IMG/VR virus record: IMGVR_UViG_3300035184_000862
Location: 1-22,152 of that record
DNA: 22,152 nt
Strand: one strand, 5' to 3'
DNA from: a virus
Shown: positions 4,501 through 20,342 of the stretch, one piece after another
How the letters are laid out: each line of letters begins with the position of its first letter
How positions within the stretch are numbered: the first letter of the stretch is position 1
Translations under genes and position numbers: made by a program
Notes under the pieces: generated by a model
Told to the model about the DNA's origin: nothing
The model's database searches: none
What the model saw: only the letters and a program-made list of their open reading frames with translations

Positions 4501-4962
4501 GTAGTATATCATCCGGTTAAGTACAAGATGGTATTTGGAAGTAAAGCAAGCGAAGATCTACAAGTAACATTTAAAATAGTTAAAAATTCAGGATTAACTA
4601 TTAATAATAATGAACTTAAAGCAAATGTTATTGACTCGATTAATAAATTCTTTAGTATAGAATATTGGAATTTTGGAGATACATTTTATTTCCAAGAGCT
4701 TAGTGCATATGTTATGAATAACTTATCACCAGAATTAGTTAGTATTGTAATTGTTCCAAAACAAGCTAGTCAAACTTTCGGAAGTCTGTTTGAAATAAAA
4801 TCTGAATCAGACGAAATTTTTATTAATGCTGCGCAAGTTAGTGATGTTGAAATCATTGACGAAATTACAGCAAGTAACTTACAAGCCTCGGGCAATGTAA
4901 TTACAAGTGTATTGAATACTAGCACCACAGGCATACAAAGTGCTGCTAACGGAGGTTACTAA
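1513..4962 (+). CDS. 6: Baseplate wedge protein gp6 (baseplate J-like), enlarged
   Basis: This 1149-residue protein is much longer than T4 gp6 (660). The N-terminus is typical: DFDNLRRTMINYLRQNYPED (about 32-51), then STEYLALIDLIAFLGQNLSF and NARENFLETAERRESILRLA, corresponding to the T4 gp6 segment that defines the wedge core. The middle holds FSDGVFGNLPTGN (about 344) and the ITAEDYN segment (431-437), the counterpart of T4 'VTATDYD'. The C-terminal baseplate-J-like domain starts near YHPVKYKMVFGSK (about 999). Between about 440 and 995 lies an insertion relative to T4, including an EF-hand-like acidic loop (residues 817-826). In T4, gp6 dimers form the inner ring of the baseplate and join the wedges. 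The last codons carry the ribosome binding site of the next gene, so the two are probably translationally linked. The gene is preceded by its own late promoter. Confidence 0.93.
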   Translation: MSSTDRQSRLLATEDWKTIYQSFRNADFQSYDFDNLRRTMINYLRQNYPEDFNDYIESTEYLALIDLIAFLGQNLSFRIDLNARENFLETAERRESILRLARLLSYNVTRNQAANGLLKIDTIKTTESVIDSTGLNLAGITVRWNDRSNTNYFEQFIKTINAALPVNGAFGRPVTSETISGVSTDVYRFNAVNTDVPIFPFTKNVEGVSTRFEIVSSNIENGSIVEEPPLPGNNPAFLYRDSGQGAGSTNTGFFMNFRQGRLDTGNFGVDNPTPNQTIAIDSVNINNSDVWLYSTDSNGFESSLWNKLDAVEGNNIIYNSLFKGVRNVYAVTSRIEDRINLVFSDGVFGNLPTGNFKVYYRTSDNRNIVINPSALNNINIEIPYLSRNNTRETLTLGLSLKYTVNNGSTSESDQDIKTNAPATYYTQNRLITAEDYNIGPLGISQDIIKTKSVNRIASGISRYYDLKDPSGKYSNTSLFADDGILFKEEFSNKTSFSFSTQSDIEGTIYNTVEPLLATTSTMNFYLEKYNRILVSDLNINWQLIKTATNRSSGYFIDTDSVKIKIGTYTASTLRMLEPGAMCKFTAPLNGAGVQQYFKEDGTYTTDASLLGISTYKWTKIVSVYSDGTQLQTTGDGPIVFNDYIPLNAKITEVIPKLSRVLIDDTKAQIIDRVFAYRDFALRYDQTTRQWKLITAENINTVNDFSTGKTGDVSGQNLDSSWLLYFKTDGETYTITYRALRYVFESAGEVRFFFDSADKIYDPKTGQLNKDKIQILNINRKPDSLNPLTKDYTWSISDAYRDADGYVDSKKIQVQFFDRDNDGVLDDPELFNELVAPTVNPMTKYVFQQRYITSDGVEDYKYFDNSNSTIIIKANEDAIGAYSSYENDGQVFYLVTEGVFKTIDKVANTSAITSNYKANIGRAGIKFHYIHVADSNYRIDPGSSNIIDSYLLIKNYDTEFRKYLNGASATKPLPPSSDELFRNYGADIAKIKSISDEVVYHPVKYKMVFGSKASEDLQVTFKIVKNSGLTINNNELKANVIDSINKFFSIEYWNFGDTFYFQELSAYVMNNLSPELVSIVIVPKQASQTFGSLFEIKSESDEIFINAAQVSDVEIIDEITASNLQASGNVITSVLNTSTTGIQSAANGGY
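3961..3999 (+). other. EF-hand-like Ca-binding loop encoded within gp6
   Basis: Codons 817-829 encode DRDNDGVLDDPEL, an acidic D-x-D-x-D-G loop like the EF-hand/thrombospondin-3 type of calcium site. A related acidic stretch, DAYRDADGYVDS, lies just before it. It falls in the part of gp6 that T4 lacks. Calcium binding is inferred from the motif only. Confidence 0.5.
4951..4955 (+). promoter_or_regulatory. Shine-Dalgarno GGAGG inside the end of gp6
   Basis: GGAGG is encoded by the final Gly-Gly codons of gp6, 12 bases before the ATG at 4968. Only 5 bases separate the gp6 stop from the next start. Ribosomes finishing gp6 would uncover or re-use this site, consistent with translational coupling. 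No promoter motif is seen here, so the giant gene depends on transcription from upstream. Confidence 0.65.
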
Positions 4963-4967
4963 ACACC

Positions 4968-7900
4968 ATGGCTACAAACAATCAAAACGAATCAGCTCTT
5001 CCAACTCCAAATGATGATAGAAGATCTGCATCTGATTTATTGCCACGCTTCTTTAGAACAGAAGCTAATAAAAAGTTTTTACAATCAACCCTTGATCAGT
5101 TAATTCAACCAGGCGTTGCTGAAAAAATTAATAGTTACTATGGAAGAAAAACAGCAAAGGCATTTAAATCAATCGACAACTATGTCGGCGATGTATCTGC
5201 TGACAGAGAAAACTACCAGTTAGAGCCTGCCACTGTAATTAAAGATGATTTAGATAATGTAACTTTTTATAAAGATTACAATGATTATATAAACCAACTG
5301 TCCAATTTTGGAGCTAATACCGATAACCATAGTGTACTAAACAGCCAAGATAGTTATCCTTGGTCTCCTCACATTAACTGGGACAAGTTTGTTAACTTCC
5401 GTGAATATTACTGGGCACCACAAGGTCCTCTTCCAGTTCCGGTAACCGGTCAATCTAGAGATGTTGTTAGTACGTATACTGTTTCATTAGTTGATAATGA
5501 CGGCGATATTTCTTACTTATTTTCTCCAGACGGTAAAACACCTAATCCTAGTTTAAAATTATACAGAGGACAGAAATATCGTTTTGAAATAGATACTCCT
5601 GGACATCCAATGGCATTTTCTATCTCAAGATCATTTACTCCTGGAAACACTATTATTGTTTCAGGCAGAGAAGGAATTAAATCACCTGGACTATTTGATG
5701 CAACATTATACGGCACCGAATTTGATGCTGGAGAATATATTGTACTACCAAACTCTGGTTCAGTAACCTTTGATACTTCTGATAATGTTTCTACAATATA
5801 CCCTGATGGTATTCGTAAATTAGGTGAGGCTGGCGAAGAAGTTGCAAATGTTTATATTGACAAAGGTGTAGTAGAATTTACTATTCCTGATAATGCGCCT
5901 GATAACTTATTTTATATTAGTAAACACAATGTTGATGTTAGTGGCAAAGTTAGAATATACGATATTGAAGAAAATTCATTGTTAAATATTAATAATGACA
6001 TTATAGGAAAGAAAACATATTTAAGTGCAAATGGTATTGAATTATCAAACGGAATGAAATTATTCTTCCGCGGAGATACAATACCAGTTAACTACCAAAC
6101 TGGATTATACTATGTTGAAGGCGTCGGCTCTGAAATTAAATTAATTAAAGAAGACGATTTAATTATTACAGCAGCTTACACTGAAGATAATTTTATTCCT
6201 TATGATTCGGATGAGTTCGATAGACTGCCATTTTCAAATGCAAGTGCATATGCTGCAACAAAGGATTATGTAATTGTTAACCGAGCAAGTAATGATAAAA
6301 ATGCTTGGGCTAGGTATAATAAATGGTTTCATAAAGATGTACTAGCACACAGTTTTACATTTAATAATGTACCTGTTAACATTGACGAAACATTCCGCGC
6401 CAAGAGACCTATTATTGAATTTGATGCAGGATTAAAACTAGACAACTTTGGATCATTTGCAAAACAAGACGTTGACTTGATTGATACATTTACTGCTGAT
6501 GTGTTTAGTAATATTGAAGGTCAACTAGGATATATTGTTGATGGAATTAGTCTAGCGCCAAATATGCGTGTGTTATTTGCTAATGATAATGACACATTAG
6601 TTAATAGTAAAATTTACACTGTTAAGTTTGTTACTATTAAAAATGACACTAGGATTAGCTTAATCGAAACTATTGATACTACTCCTTTAGATTTAGAAAC
6701 AGTATTTGTAACTAAAGGAACTATTAATGCAGGTAAGACTTTCCATTATCACGGTAATGCGTGGGTACTAGCTCAGGAAAAATTAACAGTAAATCAATCA
6801 CCATTATTTGAATTGTTTGATGCAGAAGGTATAAGCTATAATGACACTACTGTTTATAGTTCAGTAGCGTATGCCGGAAATAAATTGTTTAGTTTTAAAC
6901 AAGGAACTGGCACTAATGATTCTGAATTAGGGTTTCCTTTAAGTTATAAGAACTTAGCAAACAGCGGCGATATAGTATTTGAATTTAATTTGTTAACAGA
7001 TACTTTTGCTAACGGCACAGAAACAATTAAAACAGATACTTCATTTATTAAACAATACACAACTAAAGATAACTTTGTTTATAAAAATGGGTGGTCTAGT
7101 ACTCCTGCTAAATCTATGCAAAAGGTAATACAACAGTTTGTAGTAGACGAAACTTCATTAACTGATTTTGCAATTAATGTATATGATAACTCTGCAACTT
7201 TAACAGACTTGTCTACATTTGTTTATGTAAATCGTACATTTAAAATTGTTAACACTGATTATACTATAGTTTCAGATGCAGCTAATAATGCATATGTTAG
7301 GTTTAACAATGAATTATCTATTGATGATATTGTATTAATTAAAACAACTAGTGCAACTCCTAAAAATCTAAATGGGCATTATGAAATACCTATTAACCTA
7401 GAAAGAAATCCGTTAAATGATGACGTTAGTGAATTTACACTAGGTGAAGTAATTGATCATGTTAGCACAATTATTGAAGACCTTCCTAAATTTACTGGAT
7501 TGTATCCAGGTAGCACTAACATGCGAGATTTAGGCGACATAGATACATACGGTAAGCGATTTATAAAACATAGTGGTCCTATTAATTTACCACTTTACCA
7601 TATTACGAATAAAGACTATAATATTATTTCAGCAATAGAATACAGCAGAGATGAGTATTCGAGATTCAAAAGAAACTTTGTTGAAATTGCATCTAATTTA
7701 GGTTTCGACGGCCCAGTAAAATTACATGTTGATAAAGTATTGTATGAACTAAACAAAGACAAAGTTAAAACCCAACCGTTTTACTTTTCTGACATGCTTG
7801 CATCAGGCACACCAAATAGAATTGAATACAATGTATTAGATGTACGTACTTTATATTATGCATTATCAAATAATTTTAATTTAACTACTTTATCTCCAGA

Positions 7901-10900
7901 AAGTGTATTAATATATTTAAATGGAACACAGTTAACGCATGAAGTTGATTATACATTTGATAATCAAGGATTTGTATTAATAGACAGTTATCAATCAGTC
8001 GGCGACACAATTGAAATTTATGAATACGAAACTACTGATGGTAGTTATGTTCCGTCAACTCCGACAAAACTAGGAATGTTACCTAAGTATGCACCTGAAC
8101 TAACAATTGACACAACTTATATTTCAACTACTACTGTTAATGGTGCAGGTCCATTTAAGATCTATGGAGAAGTTGATACATTCAATGCGTTAGCTAGGCG
8201 CCGCGGATGGTTTTATCCAGTGTATACAAGTAAGCATCAAGCTGAACTAGCAGACTCTAGTTCTAGCTCAACTAAGCTCCAATTTAAAGGTCTTAGTACT
8301 ATATTTTACGCTCCTACTAATGGCGGTTCTTTTGGTGAACAAGACAATTCAGAAAACCCTGAATACCCAATTGGCGTAGCAATGATACAAGGACATGACG
8401 GAAGTCTTGTTAAAGCGTTTAAAGACTATCGTGATGAATTAATATTAGATGTTGAAAATAGAATTTTTAATAATATTAAATCCACCTACGATAATACTTT
8501 ATTAAACGTTGATAAATTTGTTCCAGGCACTCACAGAAAAACAGAGTATAGTAAACTACAAGTTGACAGTACAACACTAAAAGATTTTATTCAATGGTTA
8601 AGATTTGTTGATACTGATTATACTATTAATGATTTCTACGATAGAAATAACACATTTACATTTAATTATTCAAGTATGACTAGTATTGTAAACGGTAACC
8701 AACTTCCAGGATTTTGGAGAGGAGTATATAAAGAATTACTTGATACAGATCGTCCTCACTCACACCCTTGGGAAATACTTGGATTTAGAATTAAACCAAA
8801 TTGGTGGAATGAAGTATACGGTCCAGCACCTTACACTAAAAATAATTTAAACTTATGGCAAGATCTCGAAAACGGATTTGTTAAAGAACCTAAAAAACCA
8901 TTAGTTGTACTAACTGATTATGTAAGACCTGGATTAATAAATCACATCCCAGTTGACGAGCAAGGAAATTTAATATCTCCAGTATTATCAAATTATGCAC
9001 AAAATGTATCTTTTAGATCTGCATCTAACGGATTTACTTTCGGTGACCATAGTCCTGTAGAAACCGCTTGGAGACGCAGCAGTGAACAACCTTTTGCATT
9101 GCTAAAGTCTTGGATGCTTAATAAGCCAGCACAATTTCTTAGTGTAGGATTTGATAAATCTAGAATTAAGAAAAACCTTGCAGGACAGTTTGTATATACT
9201 ACTACTAACAAGCACATAAGATTGAAAGATATTGAACTACCAAATACAACTAGTGACAACTCGAGAGTAAGTACTTCAGGAGTTGTTAATTACATTTACA
9301 ATCTTATAGCAAGTAATGTATTAACTGTTTATAGCGACTATAAAACAAACTTAGCAAGTATAAACAATCAGCTAGGAATTAAAATTGGCGGCTTTACAGA
9401 CAAAACTAAATTTAAACTTATTCTGGATAGTCGGGCGCCAATTACTACACAAGAAAATAGTATATACGTTCCGGATGAAAATTATAAAATCTTCCTAAAC
9501 ACTAGTTCTCCACTAAAGACGTTGTCATACAGCGGAATAGTTATTGAAAAATCATCGAATGGATTTAGTGTTATAGGATATGATGAAACTAATCCGTTCT
9601 TTAATTATTATAGTACTAACGCTGCATCTTCAGATCCTGTTATAAGTGTTGGCGGAGTAAGCGAATCGACAACGCAATGGCGAGCAGGAAAATCATATGT
9701 TCGTGGCCAAATACTTGAAGAAAACTTTAAGTTCTTTAGGGTTACTAAAAACTTCACTAGTGGAGACACATTTGATAAAACTAATTTAGCAGCACTTGGC
9801 GAACTTCCAATTGTTGGCGGAAAGCAAGCAACGTTTGCTAGATCTTTTGATAAAAGCGTAATTAAAAAATTACCATACGGTACAAGACTATCTTCCTCAC
9901 AAGAAATAGTAGACTTTATATTAGGTTATAATGCTTACTTGTCAGATATTGGTTTTGAATTTGAATTCTTTAATGTTGAAACCCAGTATGTTGAAAATTG
10001 GGATCATGCAGCTAGAGAGTTTCTATTCTGGACAACACAAGGATGGGCGTCAGGAACTACTATATCTTTAAGTCCTGGAGCTAAGGATCTTGTATTAAAT
10101 TCTTCATATTCAGTAGTTGATAATATATTTGATGATTTTTATAATTATGGAGTATTAAAAGAAGACGGTCAGCCATTGGACAAGCAGAATATATCTATAT
10201 ACAGAGATAAAAATACTTTCCAAATTCAATCTAAGAATACAGATAACGGATTATACAACGTAGCACTTCCGTTAGTTCAGAAAGAACATGTTATTCTTAT
10301 TGATAATACAACAGTGTTTAACGATTTAATATATCAACCATCTACTGGTTATAGACAAGAAAGAATTAAGGTACTAGGATATCGTTCGGATGACTGGAAC
10401 GGTAGTTTAGATATTCCAGGATTTGTTTACGATGATGCAAAAGTAACACAATGGGTATCGTGGAAAGATTATAACATCGGCGATCTTATAAAATACAAAC
10501 AATTCTTTTATGTCGCATTACGCCCAGTTGCTGGATCAAAAGAATTTAATAACAGTCTTTGGTATAGACTAAATGAAAAACCTGAATCAAAATTGTATAC
10601 TAACTTTGATTATAAAATTAATCAATTTGCAGATTTTTATGACCTGGATAGTGATAACTTTGACGCCGAACAACAGCGTATGGCGCAGCACTTAATTGGT
10701 TATCAGAAACGTAATTATCTATCTAATATTATTAACGATGATGTTAGTCAATATAAATTCTATCAAGGATTTATACAAGACAAAGGTACTAAGAACGCAA
10801 TTACTAAACTATTTGATCCGTTAAGTACTGCGATTAATAATAGCATTGATTTTTATGAAGACTGGGCTATACAAGTTGGTCGATACGGAGCAACTAATGA

Positions 10901-13900
10901 TATTGAGCAAGTTGAGTACATAATTGATGAAGAAAAAATAAAAGAATCTCCACAATCAATTGAACTTGTTGATACAATACCTACTGACATAATATACGAT
11001 AAAATTTATAGAATATTACCCAGTGAAGCATATGATAAGCCTGAAAACTATAATCATAAACCGTTTCCTACTACTACACTTAATGAATATGTAATGAGCG
11101 GCGGCTATGTACACGAAGACGATGTAACTTATAAAGCTGGATCAACAATAGACTTAGGTCAAGGTGATATTAATCAACTTTCGTTAGGTGATTATATATG
11201 GTTGACTCGCACTGATAGCGACGACTGGCAAGTTTATCAAGTATCAGAAAGTGTAGCTAGAGTAACTACATTAGTTGATAATAAAATAACTTCAGATGCA
11301 AATAATCCGTTATTTACACTCACTTTAGATAAGTGGGCTGCACCTATCTTAAATGCAACTGATATTGTTGCAATTAAAGGCGCACAAGACTTTAGTATTA
11401 ACGGCATGTACAATATTAATCTTGTTTCTGGCAATACTATTAGAATTGAATTGCCAGTAGACAATACAGCAATCGAGTTTGCTGAAGAAAGCTTTACATT
11501 AATTAAACTGCGTAAAGTTAGAGCTGACAACTTATCCATGCTTAATAGCATTGTACAAGAAAATGTATATGAAGGACAAACAGTCTGGGTAGACGACTAT
11601 AGTAGCAACGGTTCTAATACATGGGGTGTATATAAAAATACTCCAGTATATACTGAGCAACAGACTATTACAAATCCTGCTGTAGACGATGGAGATTCAC
11701 ACAAATTCACTAACTCAATGAGTGCAACTGATGATAACTTAGATTTGTTTGTAAGTGCAGCAGAAAATGGCAACGGGTCTGTGTACCATTATACAGATAA
11801 TGTAGATAGCAGTAATTTAGTACAACAGACTGAAATAACTGCTCCGGAAAATTTATTCGATATCACTGAAGCTAAATTTGGTGAAAGTGTTAGTGCTGCG
11901 CCAGACGGCGAATATCTTGCTGTTGGTATACCAGAGGCAAGCAATGTTAAAACAAAATTTAAAGGTGAATTTAATGAGTTTGGACCAAGTGGCACTAGTG
12001 AGTCACCAGCTAGTTATACCAAATATGATATAATACGCTATAGAGAAAGTGTGTGGCAAGCAAACAGAGAAATTCTTCCTAAGATCGGAAGTCAGCCTTT
12101 CTCAACATTTGATACGTATGTAAATATTGCTAATGCAGCAGATGCAGATTCGACTACTGTTAAATTATTAGTTGCAGGAAATCCTGGATTAACAGTTGAT
12201 GCTACTCATATGCTAGTTAGAGCTCCTAAAGATATGTACTTAGGTACTAAAGCCGGAGACAGAATTAAGCTTAATTGGAATAACCGTAGCTTTACGTTTC
12301 CTACATTAGATAATTATTTTCCATTCGATAATACTATTCCGGAATTAGATGCTGATTTTATTACCGGGCTGCACGAAATTGATGCTAAGATTGATAGTGT
12401 ATTCTTAATACCTGCCTATGTAGCACTTCCTAGTATTGGCGACTTTGTATCATCAGATACTGGTAGCGGTTTAGTTCATTATGTACAGGCAGATGGCGAC
12501 ACGGCAGTAGTATATGTAAAAGACATTACAGGAATATTTGCACTATCCGGCGAAATGTATATTGGCAATGAGTTTATTGGTTTATACACTGAAGAGGATA
12601 CTTATAACTTATCTGATGCACTTGGCGGCTACTGGTTAATTACAGCACCACTGCACAATAATAACGGAAATAGTTTTGATATTGGCCGCGGCTTAGTTTA
12701 TGTTGATGTATTAAGAGATGTAATCGACGATGGAAGAACCCCATACGAGTACGATAACATTCAGTCAACAGTTGGACTTATTGGTACGTATATTAAAAAC
12801 TCCAATCAAGCAAGCTTTATTACAAATCTAAGCTATTATGGCGATAATGGAGGAGTTGAACAAAAGTATGAAACTAATAAGTGGGTAGTACGTGTTTCAG
12901 ACGCATTTACTACTAATGTAGAATCATCAGGGTTGAGCTCAATTGACTTCCGCTTGTATGATTTAGATAATAGAGATATTGACATCGAAACCGCAGGGTT
13001 TACCATTGATATATTAAATAAACGTCAAACTATTGTTGATAAATGGGACGGATATATTGATTTTGATTTTACTCGATTCGACTTTAATGGTAATGTATTT
13101 GAGCCACTTATTGGTGATATTATTGAAGATATACAAACACCATTTAACGAGTTCGGCGGCTTTGCACTAACTAGTATCACAACTAGTACTGCCGAAGTTG
13201 TATACTATCAGAGAAACTTTAACTCAATTAGAGTATATGTTAAAAACATTACAGGTAATTGGGAACCATTAAACAATATAGGAAAGTATGAACTAAGACG
13301 TAAGGCAAATTCTGCACTTGCACCAACAGGAAGAGGCACCAGCGATGTTGATCGCACAATAGGAACTATACAAGATTTTGATAATGATGTTGTTTTAGGA
13401 TCTAAAGGTAACAGCTTGATTGGTAAGTTGTTTGTATTTGAAGCAGATGCAAATTTTACAGTTACTACTGAAACTTGGGAACAAGTTGCATCAATTATAG
13501 ACGAAGAATATTTCTTCTTTGATGAACAATTTAACGTTGCTGGAGCATCAAGAGAAGCAAATCCACCAAACAAATTAAACAAAGATTATACACAGATTTA
13601 TAACATACCGGCATCTACAATTGGCACTAGTAGTGAACTAGCTAATGAAGGAGCAGTTGCACTTTATAAAAAAGTAATAACAGACGATACATACTCTTAT
13701 TCATTAGTAGATATAATTGTTAGTGAATATACTGCTGAAAATAGAAAGTTTGGTAAAAAAGTTAAGCTTATTAAACACAATAATCTTTATACATTGTTAA
13801 TTTCAAGCCAAGGTGATACAACAAGAGAAAACCCCGGAACAATTGAAATATTCAAGCACGGTTATACTACAGCTGATGATTATGCCGGTATTTGGAATAT

Positions 13901-16900
13901 CAATAGTACATACTTGTTTAATCAAATAGTTTTACACGAAGGGGACTATTTCCGCGCAGTAAAAAATGTTAACACACAGGTTGCTTCTAGTATAATTAAT
14001 CCAATCCTTTGGAATAAAATTAGTTGGAAAACTAGTAAAGATGAAAACTACCGCGGCGTACTGGATACAACATATCCGTATGCTAAAAATTCTGTAGTTT
14101 CGATTAGCGGCAGACTGTATCGAGCAAAGACTAATATTGCCGCAGGCGCAGTAATATCGTTAAATGACTGGTTACTGATCACAGACGGTTTAGATTATGT
14201 AGGATTATTACCAAATCTTACAGGAAATGCATTTTATGACGAAACACTTTATGATCCAGCAGATGATATACATCAGTTTAGTAAAGACTTTGATGTAAGT
14301 ATAGACGGATCAATTTTAGCAGTAGTTAGTGAAGCAAGTATAAACGATAGTAGTGTTGACAACTCTGGAAGAAAGCAAGTTGTAATTTATCGACTAGTTG
14401 ATAACAAATATTCTGTAAGTCAAATTATAGATGGTGTTGATAATATTGATGGATTTGCAAACAGTATTGCTGTTAGTCCGTCAGGAACTACTATAGCAAT
14501 TACCGAACCATTTAATGATGACGAAAAGATTAACCAAGGTAAAGTCTACATTTATAAGCAACAAAGTGGATCGTTTAGTTACGCCCAAACATTAGAATCA
14601 CCGCAAAATGAAGAAAGTGAAATGTTTGGATTTAGTGTTAGCTTTAGCGCAGATAACCTTATAGTGTCAAGTATAAATGGAGATATGAAATTACCAACTA
14701 CGTTTGATGTAGCTGCTAATATTGATACTACTTTTGACATGGAGTTCACTCAGTTTAGTAATATATTATTAGATACTGGAGTAGTGTACATATACGAGCA
14801 TATTGAAAATAGTTTAGTATTTTCGGAATCAATTCGTTATGATTTAGCTAACTCGTACTTTGGCGAAAACTTATATGCTAATAATAACGTTCTTTATATT
14901 GGTATGCCTAATAAAAATATTGGCGGTCACGAAGGAACTTTATTAAAATATATTAAGCCTGAAAACACATTAGCATGGACTAGGACAAGAAATTTAATTA
15001 AGCCAGTTGATGTATCTAAATTGAGAGGAGCATTTCTTTATAATAAGAGGCAAAATCAAATTATTACTTACTTGGATTATATTGATCCAATACAAGGAAA
15101 GATTGCAGGTCCTGCAGAACAAGAACTTACGTATAAAGTAGGATATGATCCAGCAACATATAATGTAAGTTTATATTCCGGCTTAGACACTGATGTATTT
15201 TGGGCAGAAGAACATGTTGGACAAACATGGTGGAACTTACGTACTGCTAGATTTGTATATCCGTACCAAGGAGACATTCAGTATCAGAAGGCACACTGGA
15301 ACGAATTGCAACCGGGTTCGACAATTGATGTATACGAGTGGGTAGAAAGTGACTTCTTGCCAAGCAACTGGGATGGAATAGCCGACACTGATACAGGATT
15401 AGTTACAGGCATTAGTGGCACTAGTGTTTATGGTGATTCGCAGTACAGCACAAAGTTTGCATACGATAATATATCACAGACATTTAAAACAAAGTACTAT
15501 TTCTGGGTAGAAAGAAAGTTAACTATTCCTGCTGTAGAAAACAGATCTTTAAGTGTATTTGATATTGCAAGATTAATTGCTCAACCAAGAGAGCAGGGCT
15601 ATCGTTATATTAGTTTTGCTGCTAACAATAGACTAATACTTAATAATTGTGACAGCCTAATTTACAACGATGATGTTGTATTAAACATTCGTTATTCTAC
15701 TAGCGACACAATTAAAGAGCAAAATGTACACAGTGCATACTATCTTATGTCAGACGGATTGGATACAAGTAATATACATCCGGAAATAGAACGTAAATGG
15801 TTTGATAGTTTAATTGGTTCTGATAGTAAACTAAGACCGGTGCCGAATACTAATTTGACTGTCAAACAGAAATACGGAGTACAAACTAATCCTCGTCAGA
15901 GCATGTTTGTAAACCGTGTAGAGGCATTAAAGCAAGTAATTGAGCGCATTAATATTGTTTTATCTAGCAACATTATTGTAGATGAATATGATATATCAAA
16001 ATTGTTGGAAAAAGACAAATCTCCATCAGCAGTAACAAGACGTTTTGATGTTACAGTTGATACTGTTGATGAATTAGCAACCGTTAGTACAAATAAAGTT
16101 ACTCCTGCTATAATAACACCTATTGTAGTAAATGGAAAATTAACAAACGTAATGATATCGTCAGCAGGTAGAGGGTATAAAGTTGCACCGTCTGTTGTTA
16201 TTACAGGTGCAGGCACAGGCGCTGAAATTAACACAGTTATTAACAACCTAGGACAAGTTATTAGTGCTACTGTAACAAGCAGAGGCACAGATTATGATGA
16301 TAATACTATTATTACTGTTAGAAAATATTCAACACTTGTTAATGCAGATTCTTCTGTAAACGGCAATTGGGCAATATATGAATATAATGATGTTACAAAG
16401 GCTTGGTCTAGAACAGCAACGCAGCAATATGATATAAGCACATGCTGGAAATATACAGATTGGTATGATACTACTGTTAATGAATTTACTATTCCGACAT
16501 ATACTATTGAACAGTCTAGTGATTTAACATCTCTTAATGATACATTAAATGATATTGTAAAAATTAAAAATGTAGGAACAGGCGGCTGGTTACTTCTTGA
16601 AAAAGAAGCAAACGAAATTACTGAAGATTATACTATTAACTACAAAACTATTGGAAGACAAAACGGTACAATACAGTTATTAGACACGTTATACACAAGC
16701 ACTAATACAGAAAAAGAATTAAGAATTATACTTAATGCAATTAAAGATAATATCTTTATTAATACACTAAAAGTAGAATATAATCAGTTATTCTTTGCCT
16801 CATTGCGTTATATTTTGTCAGAGCAAAGTTATGTAGATTGGTTATTTAAAACTAGTTTTGTTAAAGCCCGTCATAATCTTGGATTGTTACAACAGGATGT

Positions 16901-19900
16901 AACATTTAATACAGACACATTAAGCAGTTATAATTCTTACATTGAAGAAGTTAAACCTTATAAAACTGTAGTCAGAGAATATGTAAGTGCATATGATGCA
17001 TTAGATAATACAAATAGTTCAGTAAGCGACTTTGATTTGCCAGCTGGATTTGACACGTACTATCAGCAAATTCGTCCTTCGAGTGCAATTATTTCAGAAG
17101 ATACAATTTATAACACTAGCGACAATACATCTTTGTACCCACGTAAGTCATGGTTAGAAAATAGTAGCTACACAGTTAAAAGTATTGCAGTTACTAATGC
17201 TGGAAACGGATATACATATACACCAATAATAACAATTACAGGTGGAGGCGGAACTGGTGCAACAGCTGAGGCGTATTTAGGCTACGGAAAAATTACTAAA
17301 ATTAAAGTAACTAATCCCGGAACAGGTTATTATAGTGCGCCGACTGTTACTATTGAAGGCTCAATTGGACAAGCCGGAACACCAGCAAGGGCAAGTGCAA
17401 TTATTGGCAACGGCGTAGTAAGAACACCAACTATTGGCGTTAAGTTTGACAGACTGTCTAAAACTTATACAGTTACTACACTAGCTGAAATTGAAACCTT
17501 CACTGGAACTAGTGTAAATTCTAAGTTTACTTTAGAATGGCCAATGAATTCAAATAATACTAAAGTTAGCATTACTATCAATGACGTCGAACAATTAAAA
17601 AGTGCATATACTTATGCAAATATTACTAATATTACTGCTGGCTACACAAGAGAACAAGGTCAAATTACATTTGCTATTGCGCCTAAACTAAACGATACTA
17701 TAATAGTTAATTATGAAAAGCCGTTGTCAATGCTAGATGCATCAGACAGAATTAATCATGGCTACTCTCCAACAACAACGATGACAGGCAAAGATTTAGC
17801 ACAGCTAATGACAGGCGTAGATTACGGTGGAGTAGAAGTTACTAGCTTTGATTTATCAGGTCCTGCAGGATGGGAAAGCCAAGGATGGTTTACTGATAGC
17901 TGGGATACATTTGATAATAGTTACGAAGATGAAATATTTGTATTAGACGGGTCAACTGTAGCAGTAGAACTAAGTGCAGCACTTGAAGCCGGCACGACTT
18001 ATAATCTTTATAAGAATGGTGTAAGAATTGATGCTCCTGATTTTGTAGCAGGAACAGATGAAGTTCCGGGATCGTCTGCTACTAATATAAACGCTATTAC
18101 ATCTAGTATCATAGGTGACGGTGTTACTGAGGTAATATTTGTACAAGATCTAGGTATAGAGTTAGCAGACAACGATGTATTTGTTGTTAGAAAAAACACT
18201 AGCGATGGTAGCTTTATTCCAGATCCAGAAAGCTATGATACTGCATTGAGCGGCGGCGACTTATCTTATAGTACAGCCCGCGGCGTTAATGCAGAAGAAA
18301 TTACTGTTGACGGCGATGGCTTTAATACACCGACAACTAGTGCCGGACCTGAAGAACTTGTACCGGGACAAGTGCTAGATACATTAGATATTAAAGTATT
18401 TACAAGAGACAGTGGCGGCACTGGTGCAATACATAGCCAAAGTTATGTAACAGACAGCACAGGTCCATCACAGCTAACATATAATTTAGGCGCAGTGCCT
18501 GGAAGTAATCCATCAGTTATTGTTAAAGTGTCAAATGTAATTTTAGCAGACTCGGAATACACAATTGATTGGGGAGCAAATACTGTCACTATTAGTAACC
18601 CAAGTGACAATACCGAGCTTAATATTACTACAGTTGAAAGAACTGGTCAAAACATATTAGACTTTGGAACATTAGTTGCTGATGGGTCATCAGCAACATA
18701 CGAAACAACTGTTGAATATGTTAACAATATGTCAATACATGTAACACTTGACGGAAGTAAAACAGATGTAACTATTTTAAACGTTAATAATAGAGCAGCT
18801 ATTAGGTTTGATGTTACACCTGCTGAGGATATTGTAATACATTATACAGCATTTACTAATAATGTACAAGTAAATTATAGTCAAATTACTAAAGATTCGT
18901 TTACTGCTTCAGGAGTAACAAATACATTTGTTCTTAGCGAAGCACCGTTCTATAGTTTACCAACAGCATATAATATTTTAGTAAAAGTTGATAATAAAAT
19001 ATTAAATGCAGGGTATAACATACAATTTAATATAACAGATTCTAATAGACAGTATAAGCTCGAATCATTCCAGCAACCAGGCAACGCATTACAAGCTAGT
19101 GATGTAAAAGTGTTCTTAAATGGTACAGAAATTACTACTCCTACGCAGTGGAGATTTGATATTTTTACAAGTAGTATTAATCTTTCCGACGGTGTTGGCG
19201 AAGTTGGTGACATACTTGAAGTATATGTTATTACTGACGGTGATTACCAACTTGATGGAACAACGTTAACTTTAGATACTACTCCTACAGCAGATTCTGT
19301 AGTAGAAATATTTAATTTTAGTAACCATAATATTCTTGGCATAGAAAGAATAAATTACGATGTAGTGTCAAGAGATACATTACTTACTGAAGATATACAG
19401 TATGTAACTTATAACCGACTAACTGTAGGTGAAATTACTTTACGTAAGCCTGCACACAGTACTGAGTATGTTTGGGTAACAGTTAACAGCGAACTACTAT
19501 CGCCAAGTATTGACTATTATCTAACTGATAGTAAAACAAAAGTAGTGTTAAATAAAAGGCCTGCTGCTAACGATATAATAGAAGTTATACATTTTGCAGC
19601 AGATATAAATGTACCTAAATTTGCATACAGACAGTTTAAAGACATTCTTAATAGAACACACTTTAAACGCCTTGATATTGAAGAAACAAAATTAGCTAAA
19701 GATTTACGCTATTTTGACTTAAGAATTGAAGTTGTTGATGCTAGTAAATTACCAGAACCAAATAAGTATGCAAATGTTCCAGGTGTAGTGTTTATTGCAG
19801 GTGAGCGCATTGAGTATTTTGTAAAAGAAGGCAACTTACTACGTCAACTTCGTAGAGGTACACTTGGCACAGGTGTAAAAGATATTAATGTTACAGGAAC

Positions 19901-20342
19901 AGGCGTACATGACCAAGGTCCTTCTAAAACTATTCCTTATAAAGATGTAACACAAGTGCAAGAAGTAACAGTTCCTGATAGTCCGTCAGCAACTATTCTT
20001 CTTAACTTTAAAGCAAGTAGTGTTAATGACTTTGAAATATTTGTAGCAGGAAAAAGACTGCGCAAAACAACTTTAGAATCATTTAATCCAGTATTAGCAC
20101 TTGATAGTCCTGAAGGTGACTCTACTTTAGCAGCAGAATTTACGTTATTAAATACATATGATGGAAGTAATAATATTCTTACTAGTTCAGTAGTACTTTT
20201 AGATACTCCTGTAGCTAATCAAAAGATATCAATTATGCGTAAAATAGGAAGACCATGGACGGACTTAGGCGTTTCGTTAGGCGAAACACAAACTGATATC
20301 GGATATTTCTTAAGAGCAGGAACATCGGCGCTACCAGAATAA
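4968..20342 (+). CDS. Giant modular tail/baseplate structural protein (5124 aa), in the gp7/gpI position
   Basis: One uninterrupted frame of 5124 codons (roughly 560 kDa). It follows gp6 by 5 bases and precedes small structural and fibre genes, so its role in the tail/baseplate is strongly implied. Visible parts in order: wedge-like N-terminus (about 20-110); PWSPHINWDKFVNFREYYW (about 132-150); cupredoxin-like domain (about 165-335); NRASNDKNAWARYNKWFH (about 438-455) and RPIIEF (480); an LNG/DY beta repeat (978-1021); RPHSHPWEILGF (1262); AWRRSS (1367); five CBM5/12-like modules; AQHLIGYQKR (about 1906); a split FG-GAP-like propeller (2245-2330 and 3102-3335); a tryptophan-rich region with VGQTWW (about 3421) and NPRQSMF (3641); two glycine-rich GxGY blocks; VDWLFKTSF (3956) and EVKPYKT (3994); at least six more LNG/DY repeats; and a C-terminal segment with GVVFIAGERIEYF and GTLGTG (about 4885-4991), ending with an FLRAGTSALPE tail. 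Many of these motifs recur in large, poorly characterised tail proteins of marine T4-like phages, some annotated as VrlC-like; I cannot test this. There are no transmembrane segments or signal peptide. Confidence 0.9.
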   Translation: MATNNQNESALPTPNDDRRSASDLLPRFFRTEANKKFLQSTLDQLIQPGVAEKINSYYGRKTAKAFKSIDNYVGDVSADRENYQLEPATVIKDDLDNVTFYKDYNDYINQLSNFGANTDNHSVLNSQDSYPWSPHINWDKFVNFREYYWAPQGPLPVPVTGQSRDVVSTYTVSLVDNDGDISYLFSPDGKTPNPSLKLYRGQKYRFEIDTPGHPMAFSISRSFTPGNTIIVSGREGIKSPGLFDATLYGTEFDAGEYIVLPNSGSVTFDTSDNVSTIYPDGIRKLGEAGEEVANVYIDKGVVEFTIPDNAPDNLFYISKHNVDVSGKVRIYDIEENSLLNINNDIIGKKTYLSANGIELSNGMKLFFRGDTIPVNYQTGLYYVEGVGSEIKLIKEDDLIITAAYTEDNFIPYDSDEFDRLPFSNASAYAATKDYVIVNRASNDKNAWARYNKWFHKDVLAHSFTFNNVPVNIDETFRAKRPIIEFDAGLKLDNFGSFAKQDVDLIDTFTADVFSNIEGQLGYIVDGISLAPNMRVLFANDNDTLVNSKIYTVKFVTIKNDTRISLIETIDTTPLDLETVFVTKGTINAGKTFHYHGNAWVLAQEKLTVNQSPLFELFDAEGISYNDTTVYSSVAYAGNKLFSFKQGTGTNDSELGFPLSYKNLANSGDIVFEFNLLTDTFANGTETIKTDTSFIKQYTTKDNFVYKNGWSSTPAKSMQKVIQQFVVDETSLTDFAINVYDNSATLTDLSTFVYVNRTFKIVNTDYTIVSDAANNAYVRFNNELSIDDIVLIKTTSATPKNLNGHYEIPINLERNPLNDDVSEFTLGEVIDHVSTIIEDLPKFTGLYPGSTNMRDLGDIDTYGKRFIKHSGPINLPLYHITNKDYNIISAIEYSRDEYSRFKRNFVEIASNLGFDGPVKLHVDKVLYELNKDKVKTQPFYFSDMLASGTPNRIEYNVLDVRTLYYALSNNFNLTTLSPESVLIYLNGTQLTHEVDYTFDNQGFVLIDSYQSVGDTIEIYEYETTDGSYVPSTPTKLGMLPKYAPELTIDTTYISTTTVNGAGPFKIYGEVDTFNALARRRGWFYPVYTSKHQAELADSSSSSTKLQFKGLSTIFYAPTNGGSFGEQDNSENPEYPIGVAMIQGHDGSLVKAFKDYRDELILDVENRIFNNIKSTYDNTLLNVDKFVPGTHRKTEYSKLQVDSTTLKDFIQWLRFVDTDYTINDFYDRNNTFTFNYSSMTSIVNGNQLPGFWRGVYKELLDTDRPHSHPWEILGFRIKPNWWNEVYGPAPYTKNNLNLWQDLENGFVKEPKKPLVVLTDYVRPGLINHIPVDEQGNLISPVLSNYAQNVSFRSASNGFTFGDHSPVETAWRRSSEQPFALLKSWMLNKPAQFLSVGFDKSRIKKNLAGQFVYTTTNKHIRLKDIELPNTTSDNSRVSTSGVVNYIYNLIASNVLTVYSDYKTNLASINNQLGIKIGGFTDKTKFKLILDSRAPITTQENSIYVPDENYKIFLNTSSPLKTLSYSGIVIEKSSNGFSVIGYDETNPFFNYYSTNAASSDPVISVGGVSESTTQWRAGKSYVRGQILEENFKFFRVTKNFTSGDTFDKTNLAALGELPIVGGKQATFARSFDKSVIKKLPYGTRLSSSQEIVDFILGYNAYLSDIGFEFEFFNVETQYVENWDHAAREFLFWTTQGWASGTTISLSPGAKDLVLNSSYSVVDNIFDDFYNYGVLKEDGQPLDKQNISIYRDKNTFQIQSKNTDNGLYNVALPLVQKEHVILIDNTTVFNDLIYQPSTGYRQERIKVLGYRSDDWNGSLDIPGFVYDDAKVTQWVSWKDYNIGDLIKYKQFFYVALRPVAGSKEFNNSLWYRLNEKPESKLYTNFDYKINQFADFYDLDSDNFDAEQQRMAQHLIGYQKRNYLSNIINDDVSQYKFYQGFIQDKGTKNAITKLFDPLSTAINNSIDFYEDWAIQVGRYGATNDIEQVEYIIDEEKIKESPQSIELVDTIPTDIIYDKIYRILPSEAYDKPENYNHKPFPTTTLNEYVMSGGYVHEDDVTYKAGSTIDLGQGDINQLSLGDYIWLTRTDSDDWQVYQVSESVARVTTLVDNKITSDANNPLFTLTLDKWAAPILNATDIVAIKGAQDFSINGMYNINLVSGNTIRIELPVDNTAIEFAEESFTLIKLRKVRADNLSMLNSIVQENVYEGQTVWVDDYSSNGSNTWGVYKNTPVYTEQQTITNPAVDDGDSHKFTNSMSATDDNLDLFVSAAENGNGSVYHYTDNVDSSNLVQQTEITAPENLFDITEAKFGESVSAAPDGEYLAVGIPEASNVKTKFKGEFNEFGPSGTSESPASYTKYDIIRYRESVWQANREILPKIGSQPFSTFDTYVNIANAADADSTTVKLLVAGNPGLTVDATHMLVRAPKDMYLGTKAGDRIKLNWNNRSFTFPTLDNYFPFDNTIPELDADFITGLHEIDAKIDSVFLIPAYVALPSIGDFVSSDTGSGLVHYVQADGDTAVVYVKDITGIFALSGEMYIGNEFIGLYTEEDTYNLSDALGGYWLITAPLHNNNGNSFDIGRGLVYVDVLRDVIDDGRTPYEYDNIQSTVGLIGTYIKNSNQASFITNLSYYGDNGGVEQKYETNKWVVRVSDAFTTNVESSGLSSIDFRLYDLDNRDIDIETAGFTIDILNKRQTIVDKWDGYIDFDFTRFDFNGNVFEPLIGDIIEDIQTPFNEFGGFALTSITTSTAEVVYYQRNFNSIRVYVKNITGNWEPLNNIGKYELRRKANSALAPTGRGTSDVDRTIGTIQDFDNDVVLGSKGNSLIGKLFVFEADANFTVTTETWEQVASIIDEEYFFFDEQFNVAGASREANPPNKLNKDYTQIYNIPASTIGTSSELANEGAVALYKKVITDDTYSYSLVDIIVSEYTAENRKFGKKVKLIKHNNLYTLLISSQGDTTRENPGTIEIFKHGYTTADDYAGIWNINSTYLFNQIVLHEGDYFRAVKNVNTQVASSIINPILWNKISWKTSKDENYRGVLDTTYPYAKNSVVSISGRLYRAKTNIAAGAVISLNDWLLITDGLDYVGLLPNLTGNAFYDETLYDPADDIHQFSKDFDVSIDGSILAVVSEASINDSSVDNSGRKQVVIYRLVDNKYSVSQIIDGVDNIDGFANSIAVSPSGTTIAITEPFNDDEKINQGKVYIYKQQSGSFSYAQTLESPQNEESEMFGFSVSFSADNLIVSSINGDMKLPTTFDVAANIDTTFDMEFTQFSNILLDTGVVYIYEHIENSLVFSESIRYDLANSYFGENLYANNNVLYIGMPNKNIGGHEGTLLKYIKPENTLAWTRTRNLIKPVDVSKLRGAFLYNKRQNQIITYLDYIDPIQGKIAGPAEQELTYKVGYDPATYNVSLYSGLDTDVFWAEEHVGQTWWNLRTARFVYPYQGDIQYQKAHWNELQPGSTIDVYEWVESDFLPSNWDGIADTDTGLVTGISGTSVYGDSQYSTKFAYDNISQTFKTKYYFWVERKLTIPAVENRSLSVFDIARLIAQPREQGYRYISFAANNRLILNNCDSLIYNDDVVLNIRYSTSDTIKEQNVHSAYYLMSDGLDTSNIHPEIERKWFDSLIGSDSKLRPVPNTNLTVKQKYGVQTNPRQSMFVNRVEALKQVIERINIVLSSNIIVDEYDISKLLEKDKSPSAVTRRFDVTVDTVDELATVSTNKVTPAIITPIVVNGKLTNVMISSAGRGYKVAPSVVITGAGTGAEINTVINNLGQVISATVTSRGTDYDDNTIITVRKYSTLVNADSSVNGNWAIYEYNDVTKAWSRTATQQYDISTCWKYTDWYDTTVNEFTIPTYTIEQSSDLTSLNDTLNDIVKIKNVGTGGWLLLEKEANEITEDYTINYKTIGRQNGTIQLLDTLYTSTNTEKELRIILNAIKDNIFINTLKVEYNQLFFASLRYILSEQSYVDWLFKTSFVKARHNLGLLQQDVTFNTDTLSSYNSYIEEVKPYKTVVREYVSAYDALDNTNSSVSDFDLPAGFDTYYQQIRPSSAIISEDTIYNTSDNTSLYPRKSWLENSSYTVKSIAVTNAGNGYTYTPIITITGGGGTGATAEAYLGYGKITKIKVTNPGTGYYSAPTVTIEGSIGQAGTPARASAIIGNGVVRTPTIGVKFDRLSKTYTVTTLAEIETFTGTSVNSKFTLEWPMNSNNTKVSITINDVEQLKSAYTYANITNITAGYTREQGQITFAIAPKLNDTIIVNYEKPLSMLDASDRINHGYSPTTTMTGKDLAQLMTGVDYGGVEVTSFDLSGPAGWESQGWFTDSWDTFDNSYEDEIFVLDGSTVAVELSAALEAGTTYNLYKNGVRIDAPDFVAGTDEVPGSSATNINAITSSIIGDGVTEVIFVQDLGIELADNDVFVVRKNTSDGSFIPDPESYDTALSGGDLSYSTARGVNAEEITVDGDGFNTPTTSAGPEELVPGQVLDTLDIKVFTRDSGGTGAIHSQSYVTDSTGPSQLTYNLGAVPGSNPSVIVKVSNVILADSEYTIDWGANTVTISNPSDNTELNITTVERTGQNILDFGTLVADGSSATYETTVEYVNNMSIHVTLDGSKTDVTILNVNNRAAIRFDVTPAEDIVIHYTAFTNNVQVNYSQITKDSFTASGVTNTFVLSEAPFYSLPTAYNILVKVDNKILNAGYNIQFNITDSNRQYKLESFQQPGNALQASDVKVFLNGTEITTPTQWRFDIFTSSINLSDGVGEVGDILEVYVITDGDYQLDGTTLTLDTTPTADSVVEIFNFSNHNILGIERINYDVVSRDTLLTEDIQYVTYNRLTVGEITLRKPAHSTEYVWVTVNSELLSPSIDYYLTDSKTKVVLNKRPAANDIIEVIHFAADINVPKFAYRQFKDILNRTHFKRLDIEETKLAKDLRYFDLRIEVVDASKLPEPNKYANVPGVVFIAGERIEYFVKEGNLLRQLRRGTLGTGVKDINVTGTGVHDQGPSKTIPYKDVTQVQEVTVPDSPSATILLNFKASSVNDFEIFVAGKRLRKTTLESFNPVLALDSPEGDSTLAAEFTLLNTYDGSNNILTSSVVLLDTPVANQKISIMRKIGRPWTDLGVSLGETQTDIGYFLRAGTSALPE
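5025..5297 (+). other. N-terminal wedge-anchor-like domain of the giant protein
   Basis: Residues about 20-110 include DLLPRFFRTEANKKFLQSTL and QLIQPG, a helical segment, then an acidic stretch. Starts of the form 'LLP..F......F...LDQL' recall gpI/gp7-type proteins, which bind the J/gp6 wedge dimer. The domain is immediately downstream of gp6, where that partner is expected. The homology is inferred from gene order and weak pattern similarity, not from a clear family signature. Confidence 0.4.
5460..5972 (+). other. Cupredoxin-like beta domain, metal site degenerate
   Basis: Residues about 165-335 contain LKLYRGQKYRFEIDTPGHPM, then FTIPDNAPDNLFYISKHN and a SGKVRIYDI end. This is the layout of cupredoxin-like domains in marine phage and secreted proteins: 'YRGxxYxFxxxxxGHPxxF ... 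FTVPxxAPxxLYYxCxxHxxMxG'. His213 (GHP) and His320 (KHN) are present, but the position that usually holds Cys is Ser318 and the final Met position is Val. The fold is probably kept, but type-1 copper binding is unlikely. Confidence 0.55.
7899..8030 (+). repeat. Fibre-type LNG...DY beta repeat, isolated N-proximal copy
   Basis: Residues 978-1021 read SVLIYLNGTQLTHEVDYTF, then a beta segment and VGDTIEIYEYE. This is the same 40-50-residue beta module that is repeated near the C-terminus (4197-5095). Similar units are common in tail fibres. This copy stands about 3200 residues away from the others. Confidence 0.55.
9678..9812 (+). repeat. CBM5/12-like module 1 in the giant protein
   Basis: Residues about 1571-1615: W, then KSYVRGQILEENFKFFRVTK and GDTFDKTNLAALGEL. 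This fits the CBM5/12 (ChiC-type) pattern W...Y..G..V...(x)(Y/F)(Y/F).(A/V)....G......W/L. The closing tryptophan is replaced by Leu, so this copy is the most degenerate. In the family, the exposed aromatic residues bind chitin or other beta-glycans. Confidence 0.45.
10452..10583 (+). repeat. CBM5/12-like module 2 in the giant protein
   Basis: Residues about 1829-1872: WVSWKDYNIGDLIKYKQFFY, then VALRPVAGSKEF and SLWYRL. All key positions of the CBM5/12 pattern are present: first Trp, Y-x-x-G-D, the paired aromatics FFY, a small residue, and the final Trp. It is the clearest of the five copies. Confidence 0.6.
11700..11957 (+). repeat. FG-GAP-like propeller blades 1-2 (first half)
   Basis: Residues 2245-2330 hold two units: HKFTNSMSATDDNLDLFVSA followed by NGSVYHY, and KFGESVSAAPDGEYLAVGIP. 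This is the FG-GAP/integrin-alpha-type blade pattern: FG.S.....DG..L.VG.P ... G.VY.Y. The remaining blades appear about 770 residues later. The second blade lacks its last strand (the GxVYxY element) at this point, as expected if an insertion interrupts the propeller. Confidence 0.6.
12009..12137 (+). repeat. CBM5/12-like module 3, in the propeller insertion
   Basis: Residues about 2348-2390: SYTKYDIIRYRESVWQANRE, then ILPKIGSQPFSTFDTYVNI. The pattern Y.KYDIIRYR.SVWQA matches the core of CBM5/12, 'Y..GD.V.Y.G..Y.A'. It opens the insertion directly after blade 2 of the propeller. Confidence 0.5.
12432..12539 (+). repeat. Internal 'GD...VYVKxITG' repeat, copy 1
   Basis: Residues about 2489-2524: SIGDFVSSDTGSGLVHYVQA, then VVYVKDITGIF. 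It is similar to 13110-13262 in the same insertion (IGDII, a GGFALTS-type turn, then RVYVKNITGNW). It is a small beta unit of unknown function, seen by internal comparison only. Confidence 0.45.
13110..13262 (+). repeat. Internal 'GD...VYVKxITG' repeat, copy 2
   Basis: Residues about 2715-2765: IGDIIEDIQTPFNEFGGFAL, then STAEVVYYQ and SIRVYVKNITGNWEPL. Compared with copy 1 it has about 15 extra residues in the middle. The two copies are about 190 residues apart, consistent with an old duplication within the propeller insertion. Confidence 0.45.
13893..14021 (+). repeat. CBM5/12-like module 4, in the propeller insertion
   Basis: Residues about 2976-3018: WNINSTYLFNQIVLHEGDYF, then RAVKNVNTQVASS and NPILWNKIS. 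It has the first Trp, the Y-x-x-x-x-x-V segment, the paired aromatics YF followed by RA, and the closing Trp. It is separated by ~15 residues from module 5, so the two form a tandem pair. Confidence 0.55.
14064..14180 (+). repeat. CBM5/12-like module 5, in the propeller insertion
   Basis: Residues about 3033-3071: TTYPYAKNSVVSISGRLYRA, then KTNIAAGAVISLNDWLLIT. It matches Y.YAK.SVV...GRLYRAK....G.......W of the CBM5/12 pattern. It is in tandem with module 4 and lies about 30 residues before the propeller resumes. Confidence 0.55.
14271..14972 (+). repeat. FG-GAP-like propeller blades 3-6 (second half)
   Basis: Residues 3102-3335 hold four units. Blade 3: HQFSKDFDVSIDGSILAVVS ... RKQVVIYRL. 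Blade 4: GFANSIAVSPSGTTIAITEP ... QGKVYIYKQ. Blade 5: MFGFSVSFSADNLIVSSING ... TGVVYIYEH. Blade 6: YFGENLYANNNVLYIGMP ... EGTLLKYIKP. All share F(G/A).S......(G/N)..(L/I).(V/I)... followed by G.V.IY. With the two blades at 2245-2330 this makes at least six, a complete propeller if the insertion loops out. Such propellers are usually binding platforms. Confidence 0.65.
16128..16322 (+). repeat. Glycine-rich GxGY beta repeats, block 1
   Basis: Residues 3721-3785: LTNVMISSAGRGYKVAPSVV, then ITGAGTGAEINTVI, then VISATVTSRGTDYDDNTIIT. Each unit has the form V..(V/A).(V/I)...G.GY...P.V.I.G.G.GA. It is a recurrent beta element in marine phage structural proteins and may act as a rigid spacer. The second GxGY is altered to GTDY. 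Confidence 0.6.
17175..17420 (+). repeat. Glycine-rich GxGY beta repeats, block 2
   Basis: Residues 4070-4151: VKSIAVTNAGNGYTYTPIIT, then ITGGGGTGATAEAYL, then ITKIKVTNPGTGYYSAPTVT and a GxAxxAxASA ending. The units are very close to those at 3721-3785, with better kept GNGY/GTGY turns. The blocks are separated by about 285 residues that contain the helical VDWLFKTSF and EVKPYKT segments. Confidence 0.7.
17556..20253 (+). repeat. C-terminal array of fibre-type LNG/DY beta repeats
   Basis: Between residues 4197 and 5095 at least six diverged copies of one beta module occur: about 4197-4252 (KVSITINDVEQLKSAYTY), 4515-4558 (VIVKVSNVILADSEYTI), 4589-4629 (IHVTLDG), 4668-4757 (ILVKVDNKILNAGYNI and VKVFLNGTEITTPTQW), 4834-4876 (VWVTVNSELLSPSIDYYL) and 5020-5095 (FEIFVAGKRLRKT). 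Each is followed by a 'D-x-I-x-V' strand (for example NDIIEVIHF, GDILEVYVI). The form 'hxVxVxGxxLxxxxDY ... GDxIxVxxY' is usual in phage fibres. Conserved spacer motifs, MTGKDLAQLMTGVDYGGVEV (about 4272) and the 4885-4991 segment, interrupt the array. Confidence 0.6.

Follow-up and report, generated by a model that had tools for sequence, protein, structure and literature searches.

Giant proteins in the gp25-gp6 slot are already known, because gp7 of the cyanophage P-SSM2 has 5195 aa and the gp7 proteins of cyanophages overall range from 3045 to 6167 aa (S-CAM8, 6167 aa; Sf-CH5, 4878 aa; Bellamy, 4067 aa). These cyanophage giants, annotated in several cases as gp7 or baseplate wedge initiator, follow gp25 and gp6 in P-SSM2 and gp6 in the others. 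T4 gp7 likewise lies after gp6, but has 1032 aa, and in T4 gp8, gp9 and gp10 are encoded by separate genes; P-SSM2 retains a separate gp8.

Jumbo phages carry giants of their own, which are gathered in PHROG 10938: PA5oct gp355 (3857 aa), Atu_ph07 gp180 (4449 aa), AP-J-162 ORF58 (4455 aa), 121Q gp582 (3323 aa) and RaK2 gp465 (3326 aa), together with CBB_236, phAPEC6 gp245 and SCTP-2 gp140. Published mass spectrometry identifies orthologues as virion proteins: the record of PA5oct gp355 notes ESI-MS/MS detection, the 381.9-kDa phAPEC6 gp245 was found in virions with 17 peptides and 7.6% coverage (PMC7247149), and CBB_236 with 21 peptides and 7.7% coverage (PMC5259590), a coverage of about 8% that does not suffice to demonstrate a chain without cleavage.

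We analysed a stretch of 22,152 bases (the window), a marine-type jumbo-phage fragment which is an entire IMG/VR record and is dominated by one giant gene. The gene is a long additional member of the known jumbo-phage family, and is neither a size record nor a new system, its size and position both being known already. Like the PHROG 10938 giants, with which it is homologous in both conserved cores, it is a single gene after gp25-gp6 (as most of them are); its product is about 700-1800 aa longer, the difference being mainly an insert at residues 2080-3350, with a split propeller and modules resembling carbohydrate-binding modules (CBM), and a longer C-terminal arm. A preliminary description of the window had presented the protein as exceptional in size and among the largest virion proteins. 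The second claim is right in comparison with T4 gp7 but fails in comparison with cyanophage gp7, which reaches 6167 aa, and the first does not stand, as relatives have 3323-5624 aa.

Gene integrity and gene order

The window holds, in order, a cut M15-peptidase-type protein, gp25, gp6, the giant gene, a phrog_11259 gene and a gene for a fibre-like protein:

1019..1456, + strand: gp25 baseplate wedge protein (Pfam GPW_gp25, 5e-8; phrog_261, 1e-18)
1513..4962, + strand: gp6-type baseplate wedge protein, 1149 aa (phrog_10646, 7e-294; phrog_219, 3.5e-23)
4951..4956, + strand: GGAGGT, ribosome binding site 11 nt upstream of the giant-gene ATG
4968..20342, + strand: giant virion structural protein gene, one ORF of 5124 codons/aa, 573 kDa, PHROG 10938 family
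20362..20967, + strand: phrog_11259 neighbour, 201 aa (PHROG profile match)
20980..22152, + strand: fibre-like virion protein, truncated where the window ends (weak phrog matches)

The giant gene is real and intact. Its frame runs from an ATG to a TAA with no internal stop and takes up 69.4% of the window, in agreement with the earlier figure of about 69%; at the base composition of the window a stop-free run of 5124 codons has a chance of about 1e-180. The computed mass of the protein is 572,955 Da (pI 4.65), which bears out the giant size and corrects the earlier estimate of about 560 kDa. In comparison with an 80%-identical relative, dN/dS was 0.08-0.23 in each 300-codon block of residues 1-4082, which marks the frame as protein-coding; because it lay near 0.1 in nearly every block, we conclude that the insert region (2080-3350) is kept as protein too.

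Three overlapping contigs are identical to the window at 99.88-99.98%, one (L003) spanning the 5' flank and the start of the giant gene and two (L083 and L084) the remainder. In all 30 further IMG/VR records that span the gene, the frame stays open for 4639-5626 codons without a stop, and re-reading 20 of them gave giant proteins of 4638-5624 aa. The preliminary description was therefore right in reading one intact tail protein, and relatives encode one protein, not several independent ones. Stops were found in two loci: L084 has one TAT to TAA change at giant-gene codon ~4851 (L084:~12050), and L120, a distant relative, has an in-frame stop near the same place (L120:~6037), codons 4851-4866 bracketing both. 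In each, an ORF comes after the single stop and encodes the C-terminal part of the protein, ~265 and ~222 residues, respectively. In all other loci the giant frame is read through as far as the locus extends.

The gene lies after gp6, as first described; it stands directly behind gp25-gp6, as gp7 does in P-SSM2 and, after gp6, in T4. The same gp25-gp6-giant block is present in PA5oct, Atu_ph07, 121Q, RaK2, CBB and XacN1, and PA5oct has a similar-sized gene (gp357, 201 aa) directly after the giant gene. Adjacency of gp6 and the giant gene is not universal, because SCTP-2 keeps the two about 90 kb apart.

Directly before gp25, the cut protein (3-1001) ends in a Peptidase_M15_4 domain of the D-Ala-D-Ala carboxypeptidase type and is probably a tail-tip cell-wall enzyme. 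The sequence TAAATA(T/C)A, which resembles T4-type late promoter boxes, occurs on the + strand at 1009, 1483 and 20340, just 5' of gp25, gp6 and the phrog_11259 gene; three of its four + strand copies in the window lie no more than 31 bases from a gene start. Rfam and tRNA scans found nothing, and Phage_sheath_1 had no match in the window or in metagenome-assembled genome (MAG) contigs bearing relatives.

Family and distribution

The PHROG 10938 profile matched successive pieces of the giant protein at E 5.5e-142 (residues 1-1333), 5.9e-97 and 4.1e-68, together covering residues 1-3999, with no match on the C-terminal piece beyond. This match over most of its length, from a single gene beside gp25 and gp6, places the protein in the family. 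A tblastn search with it returned 57 phage records, all of them jumbo phages or pieces thereof, including PA5oct relatives, Atu_ph07, Sinorhizobium Phosso, SCTP-2, RaK2/K64-1, 121Q/PBECO4, GAP32 and CBB; the significant relatives of gp6 are likewise jumbo phages such as PA5oct, Atu_ph07, RaK2, 121Q, CBB and SCTP-2, with uncultured huge-phage records in addition. XacN1 ORF325 (3313 aa), encoded behind gp6, is distantly homologous over the full core. An affiliation with pelagimyophages or cyanophages, implied earlier, is not supported: among cultured phages, the giant protein and gp6 have significant relatives in jumbo phages only, and neither half of the giant protein nor gp6 had a tblastn match in pelagimyophages or cyanophages.

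With one N-terminal query we found at least 561 related stretches in IMG/VR, which links an abundant environmental group with PA5oct/RaK2/Atu_ph07-type jumbo phages; searches that started from PA5oct and L147 added none or two further relatives. Among the MAG contigs that carry a relative, the best have lengths of 335 kb (PBPT01000016.1) and 153 kb (PBPT01000082.1), and two contigs of the same assembly carry a T4 Gp23-type capsid gene. Because of these contig sizes and capsid genes, the relatives of the window family are probably jumbo phages with T4-type capsids. These apparent jumbo-phage contigs with the giant gene sit in a Neomarinimicrobiota MAG, likely as binning contamination.

PHROG files this giant baseplate-region family under head and packaging, and PHROG 460 labels the GxGY repeat head closure Hc2. 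Both labels look misleading; we read the PHROG 460 matches as the common GxGY repeat and reject a head closure role.

Domain architecture

We aligned 26 full-length giant proteins to define conserved and variable regions, and placed domains, most of them of beta type, by profile matches and by AF2 models of residues 1-890 and 880-2075:

4968..11207, + strand: conserved core 1, residues 1-2080 (alignment; PHROG 10938), the N-terminal 160 residues among the most conserved
5457..5975, + strand: cupredoxin-like domain, residues ~164-336 (AF2 model aligned to laccases, nitrite reductases and cupredoxins)
7809..8033, + strand: fibre-adaptor beta domain like the T7 gp17 N-terminus, residues ~948-1022 (AF2, pLDDT ~90)
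9669..9803, + strand: CBM5/12-like module a, residues 1568-1612 (aligned to CBMs of chitin-oligosaccharide deacetylase, Z up to 6.9 at 1.3 A)
10437..10577, + strand: CBM5/12-like module b, residues 1824-1870 (aligned to modules of the Milano baseplate complex, Z 6.8, and of 7-7-1 fibres, Z 6.3)
10758..10823, + strand: conserved helical motif FYQGFIQDKGTKNAITKLFDPL, a suggestive candidate gp7-core motif (conservation; weak profile alignment)
11205..15017, + strand: lineage-specific insert, residues 2080-3350, largely absent from PA5oct, 121Q, RaK2 and SCTP-2
11715..14957, + strand: FG-GAP beta-propeller of ~7 blade-like repeats, residues 2250-2330, 2928-2964 and 3108-3330, split by inserts (positions by eye)
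12015..14147, + strand: CBM5/12-like modules c-e, residues 2350-2369, 2974-3000 and 3030-3060, within the propeller inserts (positions by eye)
14985..17057, + strand: conserved core 2, residues 3340-4030, with GxGY repeat 1 and an EVKPYxTxxRE motif
16965..20339, + strand: variable C-terminal arm, residues 4000-5124, with GxGY repeats, tandem beta domains and a GERIEY/LRRGTLGTG motif

The model of residues 1-890 (mean pLDDT 63.8) yields the cupredoxin-like domain, with a best Z of 8.2 over 100-111 residues; a related segment is present in P-SSM2_028 (E 4e-20). Because its copper ligands look lost (YISKHNVDVSG region, by eye), this predicted domain is probably structural. The model of residues 880-2075 (pLDDT 77) yields the T7-gp17-N-like domain and two CBM5/12-like modules. 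The former aligns at Z 7.5-9.0 to the cyanophage A4 tail protein, CBA120 TSP4 and the T7 gp17 N-domain, and at Z 5.9 to chain A of the T4 baseplate structure 5iv5. Pfam CBM_5_12 matches weakly at module b in the window and is found within region 880-2090 in 17 of the 26 family members. Pfam FG-GAP_2 matches the propeller of the window protein at 5.8e-7; of 22 relatives, 18 match as well, the best at 4e-32, and a profile self-match reached 7e-13.

The repeats of the C-terminal arm resemble fibre adaptors. In this arm, Phage_T7_tail matches in 7 and DUF2460 in 9 of the 26 family members, and some relatives have extra YHYH or coiled-coil inserts; in one, a coiled-coil stretch of ~280 residues is inserted in an otherwise beta-type arm (L148:14246-18514).

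Neither AF2 model had a Foldseek match in the PDB at E 0.001, and a sequence search of solved structures with five family profiles turned up nothing beyond chance or module matches (CBM5/12, propeller-like, antibody-like). VIA-align 2 gave matches at domain level only; gp7 was absent among the matches listed, an absence that does not count against it.

Tape measure proteins are likewise very long tail proteins. The preliminary description had called the protein beta-rich and unlike a tape measure, and our results agree: the AF2-modelled parts (within residues 1-2075) are mainly beta, there is no long coiled coil and no match to a coiled-coil family, and the gene position is wrong.

Relation to gp7 and to gp8-gp10

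Gene order points to gp7; sequence does not. The gene directly follows gp6, which is the gp7 slot of T4 and P-SSM2, and the comparison of gene order with cyanophages proposed earlier matched at the gp25-gp6-giant slot but revealed no significant full-length similarity. We found no significant homology to T4 gp6-gp12 by single-sequence hhalign or by hmmsearch, and profile comparison with gp7 of T4 and of cyanophages gave nothing significant beyond common modules of the GxGY, YHYH and GERIEY types. GxGY repeats are common to the window protein and cyanophage gp7, and a YHYH module to P-SSM2 gp7 and one relative (L147). The gp7 Pfam domain is absent from the window, and gp7 domain V was not detected in seven jumbo relatives.

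The remaining link is a FY..KGT..xLF motif (residues 1931-1952), which aligns with the KGT motif of the gp7 core, weakly, at a profile E of 0.003-0.02 over ~170 comparisons; residues ~891-933 align weakly upstream, in the same order as in the cyanophage gp7 core. These collinear matches are suggestive at the level of sequence. By hmmsearch, the best i-E for the KGT comparison was 0.25-0.5 against 0.7 for reversed controls, and the KGT helical region is modelled at pLDDT <50. Because the KGT matches are nearly at control level, we do not file the protein as gp7. The N-terminal core of cyanophage gp7, in contrast, is recognisable from T4 gp7 (residues 724-813, E 5e-7).

It is possible, but unproven, that the giant protein replaces gp8-gp10; the earlier suggestion that it stands in for gp7, gp8, gp9 and gp10 together is likewise unproven. 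Pfam PF09215 (gp8) and PF07880 (gp9/10) match in none of seven jumbo relatives and are present in T4, although PF07880 also misses P-SSM2, and the window covers a fragment of its genome. Downstream in PA5oct, gp358 is annotated as T4-gp10-like. A bolder scenario, which we regard as doubtful, is that the jumbo-phage family and cyanophage gp7 are unrelated lineages that separately grew past 5000 residues in the same slot from a common pool of beta modules, and that the one-polypeptide wedge of jumbo phages took the roles of gp7, gp8, gp9 and gp10.

Proposed role

We suggest, with reasonable confidence, that the giant protein is a modular arm of the baseplate wedge that occupies the gp7 position in a contractile-tailed jumbo phage and connects the gp6 core with fibres and with sugars of the cell surface. 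The ORF would yield one structural protein, uncleaved and located in the baseplate wedge, and present, by analogy with T4 gp7, in one copy per wedge and six per baseplate. Cores 1-2080 and 3340-4030 would hold it on the gp6/gp25 wedge ring, and the beta domains on these cores would form a long peripheral arm. This arm may dock tail fibres via the T7-gp17-N-like and fibre-adaptor-like domains, and the CBM5/12-like modules and FG-GAP propeller may make weak surface contacts; when the phage adsorbs, movement of the fibres would be relayed through the arm to the wedge, helping to trigger sheath contraction. These domain-level functions we infer by reasoning from modules known from other phage tails, such as the T7-gp17-N-like domain (Z 7.5-9) and the CBM5/12 modules of Milano and 7-7-1. 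Against a wedge arm stand the separation of gp6 and the giant gene in SCTP-2, the mass spectrometry coverage of ~8%, the lack of a significant match to the gp7 core, and the low AF2 pLDDT of the N-terminal model (63.8) and of the KGT helical region (<50).

Within this reading, the protein could descend from gp7 as a true orthologue of the T4 and cyanophage proteins, its core greatly expanded by inserted modules, a version to which we give somewhat less than an even chance. It would explain the common slot after gp6 and the alignment of the KGT motif and residues ~891-933 in gp7-core order, with a cyanophage core that itself matches T4 gp7, and cyanophage gp7 shows that growth past 5000 aa is possible; but profile E values of 0.003-0.02 over ~170 comparisons are at chance level, hmmsearch scores lie near those of reversed controls, and gp7 domains are missing both from the window and, for domain V, from seven relatives. 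Orthologous or not, the protein probably works like a gp7-type wedge arm.

Rather unlikely, in our judgement, is a primary tail-fibre or adhesin platform on the baseplate rim that is dispensable for wedge assembly, like gp306 of Klebsiella phage phiKp24, the proposed anchor fibre (PMC9700779). The CBM-like, FG-GAP, cupredoxin and adaptor domains are indeed adhesin- or fibre-like, the variable parts are the C-terminal arm and the insert, and a fibre-like gene lies downstream. The cores are nevertheless the most conserved parts, and in most relatives the gene is tied to gp25/gp6 and not to variable fibre genes.

We consider it very improbable that the gene encodes a precursor that is cleaved into several proteins, the single polypeptide being absent from virions. 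Published peptide coverage is low, and the stops in L084 and L120 would split off the last ~265 and ~222 residues, but each stop is a single change confined to one contig, the giant gene has no known cleavage site or protease, and the papers on phAPEC6 and CBB each record a single protein from it (PMC7247149, PMC5259590).

An assembly error or frameshift artefact joining separate genes is ruled out for practical purposes by the near-identical overlapping contigs, the 30 open spanning relatives and the same gene in isolate genomes.

The analysis maps the domains of a protein that ranks among the largest uncharacterised ones in phage virions. With the gp25-gp6-giant slot filled by giants in both jumbo phages and cyanophages, it becomes a testable question how the wedge grows and comes to carry fibre-docking and carbohydrate-binding modules. 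In the giant protein of L147 (~3446-3572), a segment of the YHYH region is 42% identical to residues 1233-1366 of P-SSM2 gp7 (E 1e-24), a sequence likeness that points to module exchange between the giant wedge proteins of jumbo phages and cyanophages.
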